A stretch of DNA of 64,000 bases from positions 62,001-126,000 of IMG/VR virus record IMGVR_UViG_3300008107_000003. The stretch is one strand, 5' to 3'. The stretch comes from a virus. Shown here piece after piece: positions 3,008 to 50,162 of the stretch. The translations under genes were made by a program, and so were the position numbers. A model generated the notes under the pieces. The model did no database searches. It saw only the letters and a list, made by a program, of their open reading frames with translations, and had not been told where the DNA came from. The number at the start of each line of letters is the position of its first letter. Position 1 is the stretch's first letter.

Positions 3008-4360
3008 TTAAGTTCCTCTAGTATCATTCATAAAATCTTGTGATGCTTTAGCAGCAGCACGACGTTTTGCAACCTTCTGAGCAGGAGTAACACTAGGTCC
3101 AGGTGTAGGAGCACCCTTTTCCTTTTTCTTTCCTCTTTGTTGGATAGCACCACCAGCACCCATTCTTCCAGAACCCATAACTTTGTGCATGTGTCTCATA
3201 ACTTGAGAATGCTTATCATCACCACCCATGGTGCCACCTTTGGTTACAGGTTTACCAGTCTTAAGATCCTTACCTGTTTCTTTCTCGTAACGATTACGCT
3301 CAGCAATAAAATCAGAGAATGAAAGTGATTCACCCATTGCTTTTTGCTTACGAAGTTTCTTAGGATTCTTCGTCTTGTCTGCTGAGTAGTTACTATCCTC
3401 ACCCTCAGGATCTACAGCACTACGATGTCTTGTGCTTCTTTCATGATCGGGCATATTTGCACGACCACTCTTTGCTTCATCTGGAGAATACGTTCTACCA
3501 CTGTTGTACCATTCCTTACCTACATGACCTCTCTTCTTAGCATCAGCAGAAGCTTCTCTACGCTTGAGTTTTCTGCGGTTTGCTTTGAAAGCCTTCATAT
3601 CCATGCCTTCTTCCATTTCAATCTCTTCCTTCATTCCCTTTTCTCTTGCTGCTCTTGCTGCTTTTGCTTTAGCAAGAGTTCTTTCTCTTGCAGCATCACG
3701 CTCATCCTTAGGGATAGCAGTTACAGCACCAAGTCTTTCTGCAGGTTTGCCAGGAACAGCAGATTCTAATACTTCACCTTCTGGATCAAAAGAATTTTTT
3801 AATCCTAATTTAGTTTTAATTCTATCACCAATACTTTGCTTTTTAGGTGCTGATGACCTATATCCATGACGCTTAGCATAATCCATATAAGATTCACCTG
3901 GCTTCAGTTTTTTAGGATCTTCTTTTGGTTTAGAAGTAGCATCTTCACGAGCACGAAGTTTTGCACCACGATCACTTAGTTTTTTATCTTGCTCAGGATC
4001 TGGATGCCAATAATCACCTTCATTTACAAACTCTTCATTACTCACCATACCAGGAATATATTTTCCTTTGGTTTTTTTGTCATGCCATTTAATAGATTTA
4101 GTTTCTTTTTTTGCATAATCTGATGCAATTGAGTTGGCATGTAATCCTGGAGTATGACTTTTTACACCAGCTCTTTTTGCTTCTCTTTCTCGTTCAGCAG
4201 CACGTTCTTGTGCTGCCAATCTTCTCATCTCACGATCTTCTTCTAGAGATTGTCTGATTTGTTCTTTGAGACTTTCTTTAGTTGGATTAATTTTCACGGT
4301 GCTTTTGTTTCCTGTGTCTAATTTTTTTCCTGTTTTAATATTGTTATTATCCTTTTCCAT
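3008..4360 (-). CDS. Lys/Ala/Arg-rich probable virion protein with internal capsid-targeting-like motif
   Basis: The start is set at 4360 (450 residues) because GAGGAG lies 7 nt upstream of that ATG and the preceding stop ends at 4362. The upstream ATG of the same frame would overlap the neighbouring gene. The protein is highly charged, rich in K, R, E and A, and mostly predicted disordered or helical. Near residue 352 it carries SLSFSDFIAER, resembling the FxEFIAE capsid-targeting/prohead-protease signal of T4 internal proteins. The C-terminus is basic and Gly/Lys-rich. It is likely packaged in or attached to the head; no enzymatic domain is visible. Confidence 0.75.
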   Translation of the reverse strand: MEKDNNNIKTGKKLDTGNKSTVKINPTKESLKEQIRQSLEEDREMRRLAAQERAAEREREAKRAGVKSHTPGLHANSIASDYAKKETKSIKWHDKKTKGKYIPGMVSNEEFVNEGDYWHPDPEQDKKLSDRGAKLRAREDATSKPKEDPKKLKPGESYMDYAKRHGYRSSAPKKQSIGDRIKTKLGLKNSFDPEGEVLESAVPGKPAERLGAVTAIPKDERDAARERTLAKAKAARAAREKGMKEEIEMEEGMDMKAFKANRRKLKRREASADAKKRGHVGKEWYNSGRTYSPDEAKSGRANMPDHERSTRHRSAVDPEGEDSNYSADKTKNPKKLRKQKAMGESLSFSDFIAERNRYEKETGKDLKTGKPVTKGGTMGGDDKHSQVMRHMHKVMGSGRMGAGGAIQQRGKKKEKGAPTPGPSVTPAQKVAKRRAAAKASQDFMNDTRGT

Positions 4361-4361
4361 A

Positions 4362-5657
4362 TCACTCCTCACAATAAATTTGTACGCCACTTTCTTCAAA
4401 AATTACTTCATGTCCATCTTCGTATGCAGCAATAACTTCACGAACTTGCTCAACTGTGAAACCTTCTTCGATCATATCAAGATAGAGTTCTTGATACTCT
4501 TCCTTAGGAACACAGTTAGGAACTTCCTTACCGCCCTTCATTTTCTTACCAACCATTTGATATCCTTTCCAGCAAGGATCCTTATCGCCACCTTGCATCT
4601 CACCGTCTTCTTCAATATGCTCTACTTCTTCTTTGTTATATGCTTTCCAAGCAGTAGCATAAGCAATACCTTTTTCTTTTTTAGTTAATCCACCCTTCTT
4701 ATACTTATCTTTGATATGCTTAACCATACGCTCATGCTTAGCACTAGGAGGTGCTTTCTCTACCAATGTTTCTTCACCTAAACGACTTGCAACTTTACCT
4801 GCACCTGATGCAACCTTTCTAGCTGCTTTACCGACAACTTTCTTAATTCCACTCTTAAGTTTTGCACCAACTCTTGATAGGAAAGAAGGTCTTGCTGGTT
4901 TATCTGAAGATGAAGAACTGCTCGATGATGAGGAACTACCAGAAGAAGATGAACTAGAAGACTGTTGCTTCTCTGATGCCTTTGCTTTACCTGCAGCATA
5001 TCCTGCGCGAGCTGCACCTGCGATTTCTCCTGCTGCGCCTGCTGCTTTTACTGCAACTTTCTTAGCACCCGACGCTGCTGCTTTCACACCAGCTTTTGCA
5101 CCAGACTTAACTTTACTTGCAAAGTTCTTAACTGCACCTTTGATCTTAGCAACCTTTTCTTTTCTTTGCTGTTGTCTTTGGTGTTGAAATAAATCTAATT
5201 GCTTTGCTGCTTCATCTAAAGATTCAACTAGCATCATTTCAAGATCTTCGATCTCATAACCTTCTGCTAGGCACTCAGTTAGAGCTTCCTCTACCATCTC
5301 TTCAATAAGATCATCAGTTAAGAATACAATATCTTCATCAGAAAAATCATCAAGAACTGAAGAGAAATCTAGATCTTCTTTTTTCATTGCCTTCTTAATG
5401 GCCTTATCCTTTACACCAGCATACTCATCAGTCTCATCTTCTACAGTGCCATCTTCATCATAGTCTCTTGACTTCTTACCAGACTTGTTAGGATACTTAT
5501 CTTCCTGATCCTCGCCAGCCTTTTCAGATTTTTCTTCTTTTTCCTTACCTTCTTTTTCTTTTTCTTTTTCTGCTTCAGAAAGATATCCAATACCGTTTAG
5601 AATATCTTCAATTCCAGACAATCTAGAAGTAGATTGTGAGTACATGTCGTTAAGCAT
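4362..5657 (-). CDS. histone H1-like Ala/Lys-rich probable head protein
   Basis: A 431-residue protein with three parts. An acidic helical N-terminus (about 25-155, E/D/K-rich) is followed by a strongly basic Ala/Lys repeat region (about 165-290; AKAGVKAAASGAKKVAVKAA-like), itself split by a poly-Ser linker near residue 235. A C-terminal Cys-containing region follows, with KGYQMVGKKMKGGKEVPNC and an acidic end. The Ala/Lys repeats look like histone H1 or HU tails and could neutralise packaged DNA. The gene is preceded by a perfect late promoter at 5689-5696 and ends 1 nt before the next start. A virion role is inferred from composition and late control. Confidence 0.8.
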   Translation of the reverse strand: MLNDMYSQSTSRLSGIEDILNGIGYLSEAEKEKEKEGKEKEEKSEKAGEDQEDKYPNKSGKKSRDYDEDGTVEDETDEYAGVKDKAIKKAMKKEDLDFSSVLDDFSDEDIVFLTDDLIEEMVEEALTECLAEGYEIEDLEMMLVESLDEAAKQLDLFQHQRQQQRKEKVAKIKGAVKNFASKVKSGAKAGVKAAASGAKKVAVKAAGAAGEIAGAARAGYAAGKAKASEKQQSSSSSSSGSSSSSSSSSSSDKPARPSFLSRVGAKLKSGIKKVVGKAARKVASGAGKVASRLGEETLVEKAPPSAKHERMVKHIKDKYKKGGLTKKEKGIAYATAWKAYNKEEVEHIEEDGEMQGGDKDPCWKGYQMVGKKMKGGKEVPNCVPKEEYQELYLDMIEEGFTVEQVREVIAAYEDGHEVIFEESGVQIYCEE

Positions 5658-5671
5658 AATTGATACCTAAA

Positions 5672-6856
5672 TTAGTTCTTCTTTTTATTATTTATATTTC
5701 TGAAATCTGAAAATTTCATTACAGGTTGACCAGGAGTAAGTTCCTGAACATACTCTCTATACTTATCTGTACCTACTTCTAATTGAGTTTCTGGATCTTC
5801 TCCTTCAGTTAATTCAATTAGATCTTTTAGCCAACCTCTATACTTTTCATCATGCTCATCAACGTAGATAACATGATTTGTTCCTCGATTTACAATCCTA
5901 CCTACAATACCAGTATTAATATTTTCAACAATAGTCCCAATTTCAAAGATGTTACCTTTGAAATAGTTTTCTCTTAAATTTAAGTAATCAAGTTTAGGAG
6001 CAATCTCCCAAAGATTATAATCATAATCTTCTTTAATATTCATTGCTTTACGCAAGGTAGTCATAATACCTCTTGCTTCACTGTCATTAATAGTCTTAGG
6101 CATACCCTTTTTAAAGGTATCAAAATCATTATCGGCAGCTGCTTTACGCATCTTGGATGCTGACATTCCTTCTACACCTTCTGCATCAGCATCTCTTTCA
6201 CCTGCAGACAATACTTGGATCTCTTCAAAGTTATATATCTTACCATTATACTTCTTGGCAAGAGCATCAAATTCCCCAACTCTATCACTACCAACTACAA
6301 TATGAACTGACCCATATCCTTCCCCATATGCCGCAGAAAGAACATCGAAGATATTTTTCATATCCTCATTATCCTGAATAGCATCAGCATAATCAGGAAA
6401 CATTTTTTTCATGATTGCAACTTTAGTTGCTGGATCTAAGGGGTTCTTTTTAGGATCTTGTGTCCTGCTAGGATAAATTCTAAGATCTCCACCTTGAGAT
6501 AACTTGCCAACTTGATTGATTAATTTTTCATGTCCGATAGTAGGAGGATTAAACCTACCAAAAGTAACAGTAATTGTAGGACCACCAGCATTTACTTCTA
6601 AAGCATCTGTTGGTGCATTTGGATCTTGAGCAGGGGCAGCTGCTTGTCCTGTAGGTGCTACAGCAGATTGATCTTGTCCAGTAACAACAATTGGAGTTTG
6701 AAGTTTTTTTAGTACACCATTTTCAGATTTATATGTAATCTGACCCATATCATTGGCATATCTTCCTCTACCAACATGATGTACTTTTAATTTTTCAGCC
6801 TGATCTCTAGTCTTTGAGACTTTTGCTTCAGTTAGAAATTCGTTAAAACTTTTCAT
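5672..6856 (-). CDS. T/HxGH nucleotidyltransferase-like protein with capsid-targeting N-terminus
   Basis: A 394-residue protein. The first residues MKSFNEFLTEAK resemble the capsid-targeting peptide of T4 internal proteins (MKTYQEFIAE), with an L-x-E/A site expected for the gp21 protease. After an Ala/Pro/Gln linker (about 55-90), residues about 95-245 form a nucleotidyltransferase fold: GRFNPPTIGHEKL (TIGH at 106-109), a VVGSDR strand near 188, and SASKMRK near 231-237 in place of the ISTSxxR loop. The C-terminal 140 residues are beta-rich and unrecognised. Related cyanophage proteins are annotated as cytidylyltransferases. The substrate cannot be told from sequence. Confidence 0.8.
   Translation of the reverse strand: MKSFNEFLTEAKVSKTRDQAEKLKVHHVGRGRYANDMGQITYKSENGVLKKLQTPIVVTGQDQSAVAPTGQAAAPAQDPNAPTDALEVNAGGPTITVTFGRFNPPTIGHEKLINQVGKLSQGGDLRIYPSRTQDPKKNPLDPATKVAIMKKMFPDYADAIQDNEDMKNIFDVLSAAYGEGYGSVHIVVGSDRVGEFDALAKKYNGKIYNFEEIQVLSAGERDADAEGVEGMSASKMRKAAADNDFDTFKKGMPKTINDSEARGIMTTLRKAMNIKEDYDYNLWEIAPKLDYLNLRENYFKGNIFEIGTIVENINTGIVGRIVNRGTNHVIYVDEHDEKYRGWLKDLIELTEGEDPETQLEVGTDKYREYVQELTPGQPVMKFSDFRNINNKKKN
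5689..5696 (-). promoter_or_regulatory. late promoter TATAAATA
   Basis: A perfect late element on the minus strand inside the last codons of the nucleotidyltransferase gene. Initiation would fall near 5682, about 25 nt before the ATG at 5657 of the H1-like protein. Confidence 0.7.
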
Positions 6857-37569: not shown

Positions 37570-38601
37570 TCACTTTGACCAACGACTGATTGCACGAACA
37601 TAAGTGTCCATGCTTCCAGTTAGTTGAACATTTTCGGTTAAAGTATCTTCAACCTGAGTTGCGGAAGCTGATTTAGCAAAATATGCTTCCTTGAGAGTTT
37701 CAACCTTTGTACGGAAATCACTTTCGTTATGAAACTCTACTGCTTCAGCTAGACCTGCTAGCTTCTCCTTCTGGATCTCAGAAAGACCCATAGAAATCTC
37801 ATTCACAATCCCATTCTTGACAAAACTGCCCAACTGTTTGTTGAGCTCAACATTAATACTAATTTGCTCATTTAGTTTCTCTTCTAGTGCTTCAACTCTA
37901 GTTTCAGCGTCACCTAGAAGATCAACCTTTTCTTCAGAGACATCAATATTATGCTCTTGGAAAAGATTTCTTAGACCTTGGATGATGCTCTCTCCAATTT
38001 CTGCTTTAATGCCACTATCAACTGCTAGTTTATTTTCATCTAACCAGTTGGTAGCAACATATGAGAGATAACCATCAACCTTTTCTGCTAATTCTGTTTT
38101 AATTGTAGCAACTTCCTCTTCAAGAACTTCTGCAAATGCAGCTTCCATGATTGAATATTGCTCAGATAATTTTGAAGTTAGAGCTGCTTCAAAGATCGTT
38201 TTTGCTTTTTCTTTAAAATCTTCTGAAAGATCTTCACCAAAAACTAAAGCATTGACATCTTCCTCAACGTCAACTTTGAATGCTTCTTCAACAGTTTCTT
38301 CTGCTTCATCAGCTTCAACTTCTTCACCTTCTACTTCAGCAAGAACTTCTTCTTCATCTCCTTCAGTTTCTTCAGCAACTTTACCAGATGCTGCAGAAGG
38401 ATGAGTAGTAGGAGCGGATGCTTTGCTCACTTTAGCAGCAACTTTTTTACCAGTGCTTTCTTTATCAGTTGGCTTGGTAGTCTTAACGTCTGGTCCGCCA
38501 ATAACTTCAGCTTCGTTGCTTAATCCAGATTTTTCAGCAGGTTTCGCACCTCTGGTAACAACCTGTTCTTCTGATAGATCGTGTTCAATTTGTGTTGACA
38601 T
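37570..38601 (-). CDS. gp22: prohead scaffold protein gp22
   Basis: A 343-residue acidic, helical protein in the gp22 position between gp21 and gp23. The N-terminal third is low complexity (E/V/K/A), including runs such as EGDEEEVLAEVEGEEVEADEAEE-type sequence. The rest is a long coiled-coil region (about 110-310). It carries several L/I/V-x-E sites expected to be cut by gp21 when the core is degraded. It forms the scaffold core inside the prohead. A perfect late promoter is at 38643-38650. Confidence 0.92.
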   Translation of the reverse strand: MSTQIEHDLSEEQVVTRGAKPAEKSGLSNEAEVIGGPDVKTTKPTDKESTGKKVAAKVSKASAPTTHPSAASGKVAEETEGDEEEVLAEVEGEEVEADEAEETVEEAFKVDVEEDVNALVFGEDLSEDFKEKAKTIFEAALTSKLSEQYSIMEAAFAEVLEEEVATIKTELAEKVDGYLSYVATNWLDENKLAVDSGIKAEIGESIIQGLRNLFQEHNIDVSEEKVDLLGDAETRVEALEEKLNEQISINVELNKQLGSFVKNGIVNEISMGLSEIQKEKLAGLAEAVEFHNESDFRTKVETLKEAYFAKSASATQVEDTLTENVQLTGSMDTYVRAISRWSK

Positions 38602-38651: not shown

Positions 38652-39296
38652 TCAAAGAGTTTTCAAATACATTTCAAATGCATTTAATTGTCTTTGTTCA
38701 ATATTATGACGAGTAGATTCGTCCAAATATTTTTTAATTTTGTTAACAGTAACTTCTTTAATAAGACCGTTATCCCAAATCCACTCTTTCCCTTCCATAA
38801 TTCCATTCACAAATGCGTCAGGTGCGGAAGGATCTGCTACAATGTCAGCAGCAGTGGCAAGCATAAAATCTTCACCAACATAATTGATACCATTTTTTTC
38901 AGTTAGTGAACCCATGCCTCTCGAAGAAACACCGAGTTTTACACCTTCATCAATAAGATTTTGAGCAATGATGCCCATTGGTGTTGATAAGATTTTTGCC
39001 TTACCGATAAAATTATTTCCTTCTCTAGTGAGAGAAATAATTTTATGAGATACTCTGTCTAAATTAATAGTTGGACCCTCAGGGTGACCGAGTTCTCCAA
39101 GTGCTCTATTGTTCTCAACAAAAGTGTTATTATATTTAGCAACTTCTCTATCAAGAATATCTACATCATAATATCTTCTATTACGATTAGCAAGATTTCC
39201 TTGTAAGAAGACGCCTTCAATATATAGATGTTTTTTTCCGTTCTTTTCTTCGGTTAAAACTTTTACCTCTTCAATTTGTTCGCTAATTAATTTCAT
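38652..39296 (-). CDS. gp21: prohead core protease gp21
   Basis: A 214-residue U9/S78-type serine protease, as long as T4 gp21 (212). The catalytic His is in ELGHPEG (His71) and the catalytic Ser in LGVSSRGMGS (124/125). The NRNRRYYDVDIL segment (about 37-48) is conserved. It cleaves gp23, the scaffold and internal proteins after L/I-x-E. Its ATG overlaps the stop of the small core protein (ATGA). Confidence 0.95.
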   Translation of the reverse strand: MKLISEQIEEVKVLTEEKNGKKHLYIEGVFLQGNLANRNRRYYDVDILDREVAKYNNTFVENNRALGELGHPEGPTINLDRVSHKIISLTREGNNFIGKAKILSTPMGIIAQNLIDEGVKLGVSSRGMGSLTEKNGINYVGEDFMLATAADIVADPSAPDAFVNGIMEGKEWIWDNGLIKEVTVNKIKKYLDESTRHNIEQRQLNAFEMYLKTL

Positions 39297-46899: not shown

Positions 46900-47016
46900 T
46901 TATTTTTTCTTTCCGCCGTTCTTTGCTTTCTTAGCAGTTGCGTTTCCCTGATTTTGTTTAGAGTTCTTTTGACCTCCAGCAGTACCTTTCTTTCCTTTGT
47001 TGGGTGACTTAGACAT
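46900..47016 (-). CDS. tiny Lys/Gly/Asn-rich protein (38 aa)
   Basis: ATG at 47016 shares one base with the preceding stop (TAATG); TAA is at 46900. The whole 38-residue product is low complexity and strongly basic (MSKSPNKGKKGTAGG...GGKKK). It may bind nucleic acid or be packaged in the head, but only composition supports this. Confidence 0.6.
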   Translation of the reverse strand: MSKSPNKGKKGTAGGQKNSKQNQGNATAKKAKNGGKKK

Positions 47017-47996
47017 TAGCAGTTCCACGCACGTAACGACTTATTTATGCGTGAATTTGGGTCATTCGCAGTTTCCTTAGAAGTTAGCTTATCTTTCATA
47101 CCTCTCATTCGAGCACAAAACGACGCCCTGCGGGGATTTCCAACCTTCTTTGAAGGTGCTTTAAGGTCGCTTCCAGGATTGTCATCCTCATAAGATTTAC
47201 GTCCTTTTTCGTTAAGTCCTCCATTTTTGTTCTTACCTTCTGAACGTTGCCATGCTGCAACTTCTTCAATGTAATCACCAAAAGATTTCAGTTCAAATTC
47301 TTCTTCATGGTTGCTTCTGAGATACATTGCAGCAGCATTTAGATTATGAACTGCAAGTGCTAGTTTTGCCTGAACCCAACCAGGAAGTTGATAGTCTGGA
47401 GACTTGATTGTTTCTCTGAGCATCTTGATGTAGAGTTCGATCTCATCAAGTTGTCCAAGTGCCATCGCACCTTCATCATCTTTTTCAGTACCATTATTGA
47501 TTGCAATATGGTTCTCTTTCAATTTTGATGCTTTTCTCTCTGCTGCCTTCCTACGCATCTCTGCTTCGGATGGGCTCATTCCTTTTTCCGATGCTGCTTT
47601 ATGTGCTGCATCTCCAGCTGCTTTCACTCTTTCTGCGAATTTTGCCTTTGCATCAGACTGAGATTTAGCAACTTCAGAATTACTGATTGGTCCAGTTGGT
47701 CTGGATTGAATTCCACCCATTCGTGCTCTACGTGCATTACCACTAGATACGTTTTCTTTGATGGGATCTTTCTTTTTCCATTCTTTTTTGAGTTGTTTTT
47801 CCATACCTAGTAAGTGCTTGTAGTAATCGGGGAATTCTGCAATATGTTGAAGAGCAATACCGTATGCTGCTTTGTGATCAGTTACATGCTCACGTTCGAC
47901 AGTAGAACCGATTTCTGCCTGACGAATGACGTAATCAACATCAACACCATGCTTTTTAGCAATTTCCTGTTCGGTAGGTACTCTCTTCTTTGCCAT
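47016..47996 (-). CDS. DUF5661/DUF6321-like probable virion protein
   Basis: A 326-residue protein. The first 75 residues (RVPTEQEIAKKHGVDVDYV, then EREHVTDHKAAYGIALQHIAEFPDYY) resemble the DUF5661 module. The middle is Lys/Ala-rich (about 75-165) and followed by a helical region. The last 75 residues (NGGLNEKGRKSYEDDNPG, NPRRASFCARMRGMK, end RINKSLRAWNC) resemble DUF6321, seen in phage head-associated proteins. A KSFGDYIEEV stretch (near 238) resembles the capsid-targeting motif. Domain names are from memory. Confidence 0.75.
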   Translation of the reverse strand: MAKKRVPTEQEIAKKHGVDVDYVIRQAEIGSTVEREHVTDHKAAYGIALQHIAEFPDYYKHLLGMEKQLKKEWKKKDPIKENVSSGNARRARMGGIQSRPTGPISNSEVAKSQSDAKAKFAERVKAAGDAAHKAASEKGMSPSEAEMRRKAAERKASKLKENHIAINNGTEKDDEGAMALGQLDEIELYIKMLRETIKSPDYQLPGWVQAKLALAVHNLNAAAMYLRSNHEEEFELKSFGDYIEEVAAWQRSEGKNKNGGLNEKGRKSYEDDNPGSDLKAPSKKVGNPRRASFCARMRGMKDKLTSKETANDPNSRINKSLRAWNC

Positions 47997-48017: not shown

Positions 48018-48025
48018 TATTTATC
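48018..48025 (-). promoter_or_regulatory. late promoter GATAAATA
   Basis: A 7/8 match on the minus strand overlapping the end of the 425-residue virion gene, 22 nt before the ATG at 47996. Confidence 0.6.
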
Positions 48026-49298
48026 TTTGCTCTAACCAGTTCAACACTGCTAGTGCTGCTTTGTTGGTATTTGGTGAAGCACAAACAAGAGTGTAAGTAT
48101 CACTTACAGTTCCCAAACCACTTCTGCCAATTTGCAGAGATGCTTTTATATCAAGCTCGATCAAACTTGAACCACCACCAATCGTAAAACCACCAAGAAT
48201 ATTAGTGCCACCTGTATAAGCAGTAGCACTAATATCATATTGAGTAATGATATTAGGATCAGAAGGATTGGTCCAATTTGCTCCAGTCAGGGTTGCATTC
48301 TCTACCAATCTCCAAAACACATTAGTATTATCGTTAGTTGCTACCTGAAGTGATCTAGGCAAAGCAACACCTTGAAGTGCCGTTGGTTTCAATCTAATAC
48401 TGATTACTGGATAATATGTGTTTGCAGATGCCATCGTGGTGCCAGCAATAGCATTACTACGACTTACAAGTTGTCCTAGTTTCTCTGGTTCTCCTTCTTG
48501 AATAAGAGAATTGGAACCTTGATAGAGATAGTGTGTTCCAGCAGCACCGCCTACGTTCTCAAGTTCTAAGCGGATTGGCAGGAAAGGAGTAGCACACCAG
48601 ACATAATTAATAACGTTAGCATTATTGAATTTATGAATGACGTGAGTTTCACCGTCAATCGTATAACTGAAAATGACTTGACCAGCACCATACCATTCAT
48701 AGTCAATATTGATTAGGTGTTGTGCGTCTGGGTCTGCTACGATTTGACTAGGACCATTACCATCTAACTTATCACCATTCCAATCTTCTCTAGCAACTCG
48801 TCTCTCTACAACACTACCAGATGCTTTACTACGAATAACGCAATAATAATTTCCATCTCCACCATCTTCAAAGAAGACACCATCAGTATCGTTGAATATA
48901 CCAAACCTTCTGCGAATACCTGCTACTGGTGCTTCCAAACGAATACCAAATGAGCACTGTGATGCTCTACCTGGAATATATCTCATTACTGTTCTGGTCT
49001 GTCTGATGACCTTATCCCCAGCAGTTCCACCAACAGACATGATAATGTTTGCTGCATTTGGGTTATGGATAGCAGCACCAGCGCCCGTAGTTGCTTCATC
49101 CCAGACATCAGTTTCCTTTCCAAACTGGAAAGTGTTGAAGAATACTGTTTGGTATGGAGATGTTTTAAATCTACTCTTTGAAGTAAATTGAGGTCTCCAA
49201 TCCGATTGCTCACCCCAGTGGTCGGCAATATTGACAACCTCAAACAGAGATCTTTCTTGATTTAGAAAATCCTGTGTACTCTTATTCCACTGAGCCAT
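48021..49298 (-). CDS. virion structural protein (425 aa)
   Basis: A 425-residue beta-rich protein (strand-loop pattern throughout, many N, G, T and Y). It has an N-terminal helical lead (NKSTQDFLNQERSLFEVV) and a jelly-roll-like body, e.g. PGRASQCSFGIRLEAP and FGIFNDTDGVFFEDGGDGNYYCVIR. Similar proteins are found among the structural proteins of T4-like cyanophages. It may be a capsid-decorating or tail-attached protein. Its start at 49298 follows the preceding gene by 2 nt. Confidence 0.75.
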   Translation of the reverse strand: MAQWNKSTQDFLNQERSLFEVVNIADHWGEQSDWRPQFTSKSRFKTSPYQTVFFNTFQFGKETDVWDEATTGAGAAIHNPNAANIIMSVGGTAGDKVIRQTRTVMRYIPGRASQCSFGIRLEAPVAGIRRRFGIFNDTDGVFFEDGGDGNYYCVIRSKASGSVVERRVAREDWNGDKLDGNGPSQIVADPDAQHLINIDYEWYGAGQVIFSYTIDGETHVIHKFNNANVINYVWCATPFLPIRLELENVGGAAGTHYLYQGSNSLIQEGEPEKLGQLVSRSNAIAGTTMASANTYYPVISIRLKPTALQGVALPRSLQVATNDNTNVFWRLVENATLTGANWTNPSDPNIITQYDISATAYTGGTNILGGFTIGGGSSLIELDIKASLQIGRSGLGTVSDTYTLVCASPNTNKAALAVLNWLEQR

Positions 49299-49300
49299 TA

Positions 49301-49630
49301 TCAGAATGCTCCATACTTATGTGCAGATGTATCAATATTAACTTTATTTGATTTAGTAATATTTACTCTTGGTTTATATGGAGGATAAATTTGTTGAACC
49401 ATTGCTCCAGGGTAATCTTGCTGTAGCATCCATGTCAAATCACCATGATTGGGAATTCCATCTTCAGAAATTATTTCTATTCTGAATAACTCGCCGTTGT
49501 AGATAATATCTGCGCTATAAGTTTCTCCAACTGGTTCTGCATTCTTTCCATCAGAATGGACGTGCAGAGTACCGTTGAAGTCTCCAGCAATATTAATAGA
49601 TTCAGATAAAAATTGTTTGTAAGACTTCAT
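49301..49630 (-). CDS. small protein with capsid-targeting-like N-terminus (109 aa)
   Basis: Start at 49630 because GGAGG lies 6 nt upstream; the upstream TTG is rejected. The N-terminus MKSYKQFLSESI strongly resembles the T4 internal-protein capsid-targeting peptide, with L-S-E/S as a predicted gp21 cut. The remaining 95 residues form a compact alpha/beta domain (ADIIYNGELFRIEIISEDG, then DLTWMLQQDYPGAMV) of unknown fold. It is probably packaged in the head and injected, or retained, after cleavage. Confidence 0.75.
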   Translation of the reverse strand: MKSYKQFLSESINIAGDFNGTLHVHSDGKNAEPVGETYSADIIYNGELFRIEIISEDGIPNHGDLTWMLQQDYPGAMVQQIYPPYKPRVNITKSNKVNIDTSAHKYGAF

Positions 49631-49631
49631 A

Positions 49632-50162
49632 TCAGCCTCCAACAATTTGTACTTCTTCTACAACAATATTTGCAGCACCAGCAGTAATCTTAACGCATCT
49701 ATGTGCATATGCTTGAGCGCCAGATCCAGTATAAGTATAATTACCAGTTGCCGCTGATGAGTTAATATCAGTAGTGATAGTCATTCCAGTAGCAGCAGTA
49801 ATCTTTTTGCCTGCAGTATCGGCAGACTCAAATGCATCATCAATTACGCCAGCAGCATCAATAATTGCAATATAATCATTAACACTGAAAGGATGTGTAT
49901 CTCCTGTTATTCCCGAATTGCGATCACCAAAGGTATATACTGCAGTGGTAGAATCAGTTGCTGCAGTAATAGCTGCCCTTCCAGGGGTTGATCCCTTAAG
50001 CAAAACAGATTCACCTGCCAAAATTTGAATTGCAGGACCAGCATTAAATTGAACGGTTGATGCTGAAGTAGCACTCACTCTGTAAATACCAGTATTGACA
50101 ATCTGATATTCTGATTGAGTTGCAGAGATACTATTAGTATTCAATACATTTAAAACGGACAT
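49632..50162 (-). CDS. virion structural protein (176 aa)
   Basis: A 176-residue beta-rich protein low in charge (S, A, T, I, V). It has repeated short strands (GIYRVSATSASTVQFNAGPA, ILAGESVLLKG) and no Cys until the end. It looks like a small structural trimer or decoration protein. A late promoter (50194-50201) precedes it, and it is followed after 1 nt by the capsid-targeted protein gene. Confidence 0.75.
   Translation of the reverse strand: MSVLNVLNTNSISATQSEYQIVNTGIYRVSATSASTVQFNAGPAIQILAGESVLLKGSTPGRAAITAATDSTTAVYTFGDRNSGITGDTHPFSVNDYIAIIDAAGVIDDAFESADTAGKKITAATGMTITTDINSSAATGNYTYTGSGAQAYAHRCVKITAGAANIVVEEVQIVGG

Follow-up and report, generated by a model that had tools for sequence, protein, structure and literature searches.

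The gene at 49301-49630 and its surroundings

The window, i.e. the whole stretch of 64,000 nucleotides that was analyzed, comprises positions 62001-126000 of a virus record of 176,692 bases (also labelled G000). The relatives of this record are the T4-like cyanophages of Synechococcus and Prochlorococcus, and the window is part of such a phage. A reading frame on the minus strand, opened by ATG 49630 and closed by the stop at 49301, specifies a protein of 109 residues that starts with MKSYKQFLSESINIAGDFNG. Because a GGAGG sequence is located 5 bases upstream of this ATG, within the final codons of the preceding gene, translation likely starts there rather than at TTG 49645. This confirms the preliminary description, in which MKSYKQFLSES opens a 109-residue protein.

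The gene sits between gp16 and gp17, among head and packaging genes, where it follows the DUF7243 gene and precedes the gene for a virion structural protein (Table 1). The positional counterpart of the latter in phage S-SZBM1 (S-SZBM1_190) is found in the virion table of that phage. The protein matches the profile of phrog_1742, a family to which PHROGs assigns no function, from end to end (residues 1-109 on 1-108 of 108). A Pfam search with the protein returned no family and no DUF6321 domain, and a sequence search of the PDB returned nothing up to an E-value of 10. Relatives were identified with tblastn in 137 of 50,697 phage records, all of them named Synechococcus phage, Prochlorococcus phage or cyanophage.

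Table 1. Features of the window that bear on the 109-residue protein and its N-terminal peptide.
Feature	Position	Strand	Evidence
phrog_1742 protein, 109 aa, with N-terminal capsid-targeting-like peptide	49301..49630	-	ORF; phrog_1742 E 1.6e-43; no Pfam family
Capsid-targeting-like peptide MKSYKQFLSE; predicted cut after Glu10, before Ser11	49601..49630	-	T4 IPIII-like positions; conservation; cut inferred
Core beta-beta-alpha-beta domain, residues 34-86	49373..49531	-	model of residues 30-93; same domain inside DUF6321 polyproteins
Ribosome-binding site GGAGG for ATG 49630	49636..49640	-	sequence
Upstream neighbour, DUF7243 (phrog_682), ending at the start of the 49301-49630 gene	49632..50162	-	profile matches and sequence
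Downstream neighbour, virion structural protein (phrog_1645)	48021..49298	-	PHROGs match
gp21-type prohead protease, expected cutting enzyme	38652..39296	-	PF03420 E 9.9e-34; phrog_207
gp22-type prohead scaffold, expected docking partner of the tag	37570..38601	-	PF25623 E 2.3e-68
Cytidylyltransferase/NMNAT-like protein, N-terminal tag MKSFNEFLTEA	5672..6856 (tag 6827-6856)	-	phrog_395 E 1e-108
DUF5661 + DUF6321 protein, internal tag KSFGDYIEE directly ahead of DUF6321	47016..47996 (tag 47262-47288)	-	Pfam PF18905, PF19846; stand-alone tagged DUF6321 genes
CTG (Leu) codon at the position of the ATG in stand-alone relatives and L005/L200	47289..47291	-	sequence comparison
Multi-module protein rich in lysine, with FSDFIAE as weak internal tag at module junction	3008..4360 (tag 3299-3319)	-	relatives switch modules here

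The N-terminal peptide and its T4 counterparts

The peptide MKSYKQFLSE (hereafter the tag) has Y4, F7, L8 and E10, the residues that govern targeting and cleavage of the T4 internal protein IPIII. According to the available part of the published account, residues 4 and 7 act in targeting and residues 8 and 10 in processing, and the cleavage rule of the gp21 protease is L/I-x-E (PMC9026906). By its sequence, the L-S-E|S of the 109-residue protein would fit this rule. The internal proteins of the T-even phages are described as diverse, with the targeting sequence as the sole shared part (PMC3012670, available text). As a control we inspected T4 itself, in which both IPII and IPIII start with MKTYQEFIAEA. 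Their likeness to the 109-residue protein consists of a ten-residue N-terminal MK[ST][YF]xxF[IL]xE. Moreover, like IPI, IPII and IPIII, the cyanophage protein is small and encoded in a genome that has a gp21 protease and a gp22 scaffold. In contrast, its body is unrelated to these proteins by sequence (PHROGs, PDB sequences), its presence in the virion and its cleavage are only predicted, and the cyanophage tag occurs inside fused proteins as well. A comparable system is known from the giant phages phiKZ and SPN3US, where many head proteins are likewise cut after Glu in short motifs (PMC9026906, available part); the phiKZ site reads S/A-x-E, whereas the putative cyanophage sites are mostly of the T4-like form L/I/V/M-x-E. 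Within T4, the 54-residue product of gp61.1 (NC_000866.4 18966-19130, L304; annotated as hypothetical) has a tag-like start, MKTFKEFIKED.

The conservation of the tag was assessed with relatives that were fetched with residues 12-109 only, although one of the seeds, INIAGDFN, adjoins the tag. Among the best 80 of 224 of these relatives, the tag core was kept in all 58 unique contexts, and the pattern MK[ST][FY]xxF[LIVM]xE[SGA], Met included, in 57 of the 58, while the identity of the remaining body went down to 38%. The exception (L260) reads YEIFKQFISES. An earlier set of 31 unique sequences was not relied on because MKSYKQFL had been a search seed.

Frequency of the motif

The pattern that had been put forward in the preliminary description, [KS][SF][FY]xx[FY][LI]xE, matches three of the 74 non-overlapping ORFs of the window (49301-49630, 5672-6856 and 47016-47996), against a mean of 0.007 and a maximum of 1 in 300 residue shuffles. 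As a general code for the tag it was nevertheless discarded as too narrow, since it has no match in 277 T4 ORFs and none in the 219 CDS of phage S-CREM2. We also used a looser motif, [FY]xx[FY][LIVM]xE, which was counted as N-terminal if its aromatic residue was at 3-5. It opens 8 of 656 reading frames (219 ORFs of G000, 219 CDS of S-CREM2 and 218 CDS of S-SZBM1), versus an expectation of 0.22 based on its frequency in the rest of these proteins. The only two G000 genes that start with it are the one at 49301-49630 and the cytidylyltransferase gene at 5672-6856. The N-terminal match of the 109-residue protein is beyond chance. Internally, by contrast, the loose motif occurs 4 times in the 219 ORFs of the complete 176,692-base record versus 5.3 times in shuffles; the gene at 49301-49630 figures in this list because of its upstream TTG. 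As the motif is not commoner internally than in shuffles, the case for internal copies has to be made on grounds other than frequency.

Tagged enzymes and internal tags

The tag was found at the N-terminus of the cytidylyltransferase in 7 of the 8 records searched; in the remaining one, S-CAM1, there is only a split partial match, of which the N-terminus is unreadable. A cytidylyltransferase/NMNAT has been reported in the virions of S-CREM2, S-SZBM1, S-SCSM1 and S-SM1 (PMC10665884, PMC9146016, PMC9602691 and PMC3037559, available parts), and all four homologues begin with a tag, where for S-SM1 and S-SCSM1 the single homologue found is presumed to be the protein named in the papers. The protein encoded at 5672-6856 also has a tag-like KFSDF close to its C-terminus, as does S-SZBM1_140 (KFSDYR).

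Two related internal stretches had been pointed out before, and both are present: KSFGDYIEEV as residues 237-246 of the 326 encoded at 47016-47996, and FSDFIAER as residues 348-355 of the 450 encoded at 3008-4360. They do not have the same standing. KSFGDYIEEV heads a DUF6321 domain, and relatives encode this domain as a gene of its own that starts with a tag. In the closest isolate this gene starts with MKTYNDFITEV and in S-CREM1 it encodes 91 residues (MKTYNDFITEVAAWQRKEGKN); other stand-alone DUF6321 genes start with MKTYNDFITEVAAWQ and similar sequences, or with MKTFKDFISEG or MKTFNQFIAEE. In two loci (L005 and L200) an ATG precedes KSFGDF, and the CTG at the equivalent position in the window is likely a relic of the start codon of a gene that has been fused. 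Judged by these alignments, KSFGDYIEEV is a true copy of the tag. A second internal tag is found in S-SZBM1_194, where FITYREFIAEG at residue 539 lies ahead of a SAM-lyase domain that forms a separate tagged gene, gp6, in S-CREM2. In a third case (L102) the tag, the cytidylyltransferase, DUF3008 and DUF6321 are joined in one chain of 1167 residues. The modules are exchanged between tagged genes and fused chains.

The junctions in front of DUF6321 were counted in 38 unique contexts, with the loci fetched by a tag-holding query (L144-L223) left out. A Glu lies within 7 residues of the first Trp of DUF6321 in all 38, and the P3 position is occupied by L, I, V, M or F in 26 of the 38, versus 196 of the 1072 other Glu residues in the same ORFs. 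The tag itself directly precedes the module in 15 of the 38 contexts.

FSDFIAER does not match the narrow pattern and fits only the looser one, and by frequency alone, given the internal count above, it is at chance level at most. It was not accepted as a full tag: some relatives read SLSFSDFIAE or SLSFSNFIAE, others only DFVTE, EFVSE or HIDE. The tag-like part is missing from several relatives, and its P1' residue is Arg. Four relatives of the 3008-4360 protein (L068, L072, L078 and L082) do have an N-terminal tag at their start. The adjacent reading frame at 4362-5657, which adjoins the cytidylyltransferase gene, encodes a 431-residue protein that is rich in acidic residues and lysine and has runs of Ser and of Ala/Lys; it may be a further head polyprotein.

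Published virion proteomes

For S-CREM2, mass spectrometry yielded a list of 52 virion proteins (PMC10665884, Table 3). The loose motif starts three of the 219 CDS of this phage, gp6 (SAM hydrolase), gp14 (kinase) and gp154 (cytidylyltransferase), and all three belong to the 52 (Fisher p 0.013). With a widened motif, which was chosen after the N-termini had been seen, the score is five out of six (p 0.0032), gp13 and gp136 being added and gp175 remaining undetected. Within the published table, the tag is associated with virion proteins in S-CREM2. For S-SZBM1, where 30 virion proteins were detected (PMC9146016, Table 1), only one of three tagged CDS is in the table, namely the cytidylyltransferase (p 0.36). 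For proteins other than the 109-residue one, the idea of a common head-sorting code is backed by the S-CREM2 list, whereas the S-SZBM1 count speaks against it.

The 109-residue protein itself has homologues in two of the phages with a proteome. S-SZBM1 gp191 (MKSFKSFLSES) is absent from the 30 detected proteins of Table 1, and so is its tagged neighbour gp192. S-SCSM1 gp30 (MKTFKQFMSES; phrog_1742 E 3.4e-46) carries no virion protein label in its record, whereas its neighbours gp29 and gp31 do; we take these labels to reflect detection by mass spectrometry. These two proteomes therefore give the 109-residue protein no support. The proposed capsid-targeting character of its N-terminus is supported by the T4-like positions 4, 7, 8 and 10, by the near-invariance of the peptide in the family and by the S-CREM2 virion list, and not by the homologues in S-SZBM1 and S-SCSM1.

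The core domain

The predicted model of the whole protein was poor (pLDDT 61), and a fold search of the PDB with it returned nothing under an E-value of 0.001 (VIA best Z 4.8). The model of residues 30-93 showed strand-strand-helix-strand with a mean pLDDT of 83. We found this core domain in 12 unique long ORFs, and DUF6321 along with it in 11 (E 5.5e-5 to 1e-2). A hydrophobic-x-Glu-Ala/Ser joint lies just ahead of the core in 11 of the 12; the twelfth (L210) has a VIEA that was seen by eye and missed by the joint pattern. By eye the domain was also recognized in S-SCSM1_29, which is labelled virion protein. The cyanophage polyproteins with DUF6321 (phrog_727) have in common with the 109-residue protein just this core module, and they show the same hydrophobic-x-Glu joints; they differ in being fused chains, in most of which no tag immediately precedes the module.

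In VIA-align the core model had T7 Gp2 (chain 4lk0_M) as its first match (Z 5.1, rmsd 2.5, 50 of 51 residues), with the following unrelated row at Z 4.5. In Foldseek T7 Gp2 was again first (E 0.15), followed by YkzG, an RNA polymerase interacting protein. Because ribosomal proteins nearly tie with it, within one Z unit, the match to T7 Gp2 is a lead and not a result.

A proposed modular cargo set

We consider it probable that the 109-residue protein is a small internal protein, or one of the prohead core, with a T4-type capsid-targeting peptide, and that it belongs to a modular cargo set. The protein would be made late, and its ten N-terminal residues would act as a propeptide that docks on the gp22-type prohead core. 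The gp21-type protease would then cut after Glu10 to leave a mature protein of 99 residues in the head, which would probably be ejected together with the DNA. The same tag is present on the cytidylyltransferase and within the 47016-47996 protein, and in this phage group the cargo modules are encoded either as separate genes that start with the tag or as fused chains with a hydrophobic-x-Glu site at the joints.

We are less certain that the mature head retains the protein than we are of the reading of its tag. The tag could be genuine while the protein is a component of the prohead core, like T4 gp67 and gp68, which is cut up or lost so that little of it is left in the virion. The T4 core proteins exit the head after cleavage (PMC9026906, available part), and the virion table of S-SZBM1 and the labels of S-SCSM1 could be explained by a core protein that disappears during maturation; the position of the gene among head and packaging genes also speaks for this reading. 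The ordered core, however, and its reuse as a module elsewhere look like a domain that is kept, and we regard such a loss as unlikely. It is quite improbable that the N-terminus is conserved for a reason other than head sorting, for instance as a binding helix for a partner in the tail, neck or terminase. Although the gene adjoins neck and terminase genes, and the presence of its product in virions is a prediction, the same peptide opens an unrelated cytidylyltransferase, SAM lyase, kinase and DUF6321 protein, several of which are listed in the published virion tables, and it matches that of T4 IPII and IPIII. A chance origin of the internal copies, to which the internal counts would point, is likewise hard to credit as a general explanation. 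It is disfavoured for the 47016-47996 gene, where the copy can be aligned with the tag at the start of stand-alone DUF6321 genes and a CTG occupies the Met position, and the internal tag of S-SZBM1_194 precedes a domain for which S-CREM2 has a tagged gene of its own. It is possible for FSDFIAER.

What is new is that the tag and the cleavage-like joints are used in a modular way. The occurrence of the tag both on head cargo proteins and at the joints of chained ones suggests a reusable loading code. A literature search covering titles and the beginnings of abstracts, with few subscription journals, returned nothing on cyanophage capsid targeting, prohead-protease cleavage sites or DUF6321, and the available parts of the papers cited leave unexplained by which route the virion enzymes of cyanophages (NMNAT/cytidylyltransferase, SAM lyase, kinase) enter the head. 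With a readable tag, the injected proteins of a widespread group of ocean viruses could be predicted from their genomes; such a tag would also show that the T4 head-loading code functions in distant phages and serves at the joints of multi-module proteins. The closest parallel for the enzymes is T4 Alt, an injected head enzyme: the idea of a packaged enzyme is common to both, whereas the start of Alt (MELITELFDE), like that of IPI (MKTFKEFTST), escapes the loose motif.

A bolder and rather unlikely extension is that the T4-like cyanophages possess an exchangeable cargo system, in which each module has a tag and a gp21-type site, polyproteins are cut by gp21 in the prohead and the cargo is injected, with the 109-residue protein as cargo of T7 Gp2-like fold aimed at the host RNA polymerase. 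If true, its role would be that of Alt and IPI for T4.

In the cyanophage cytidylyltransferases the tag is followed by a stretch of about 45 residues, LGLxxDGHGxWxDxxGxxxAxTxxGxLxF and variants (window 6700-6856; L102:1291-4794). It recurs in S-CREM2 gp12 and gp14 (L053:7704-10313 and L053:10579-12846), in gp14 also internally, after WSFDQFQEHALMEGG, and might represent another module for packaging or for binding DNA. S-CREM2 gp12 is annotated as a CRISPR-associated, Cas9-like endonuclease, for which a Pfam search found no family; it is reported in virions in the published table, and its tag, RFASFMAEA, is located at residue 18 and not at its start.
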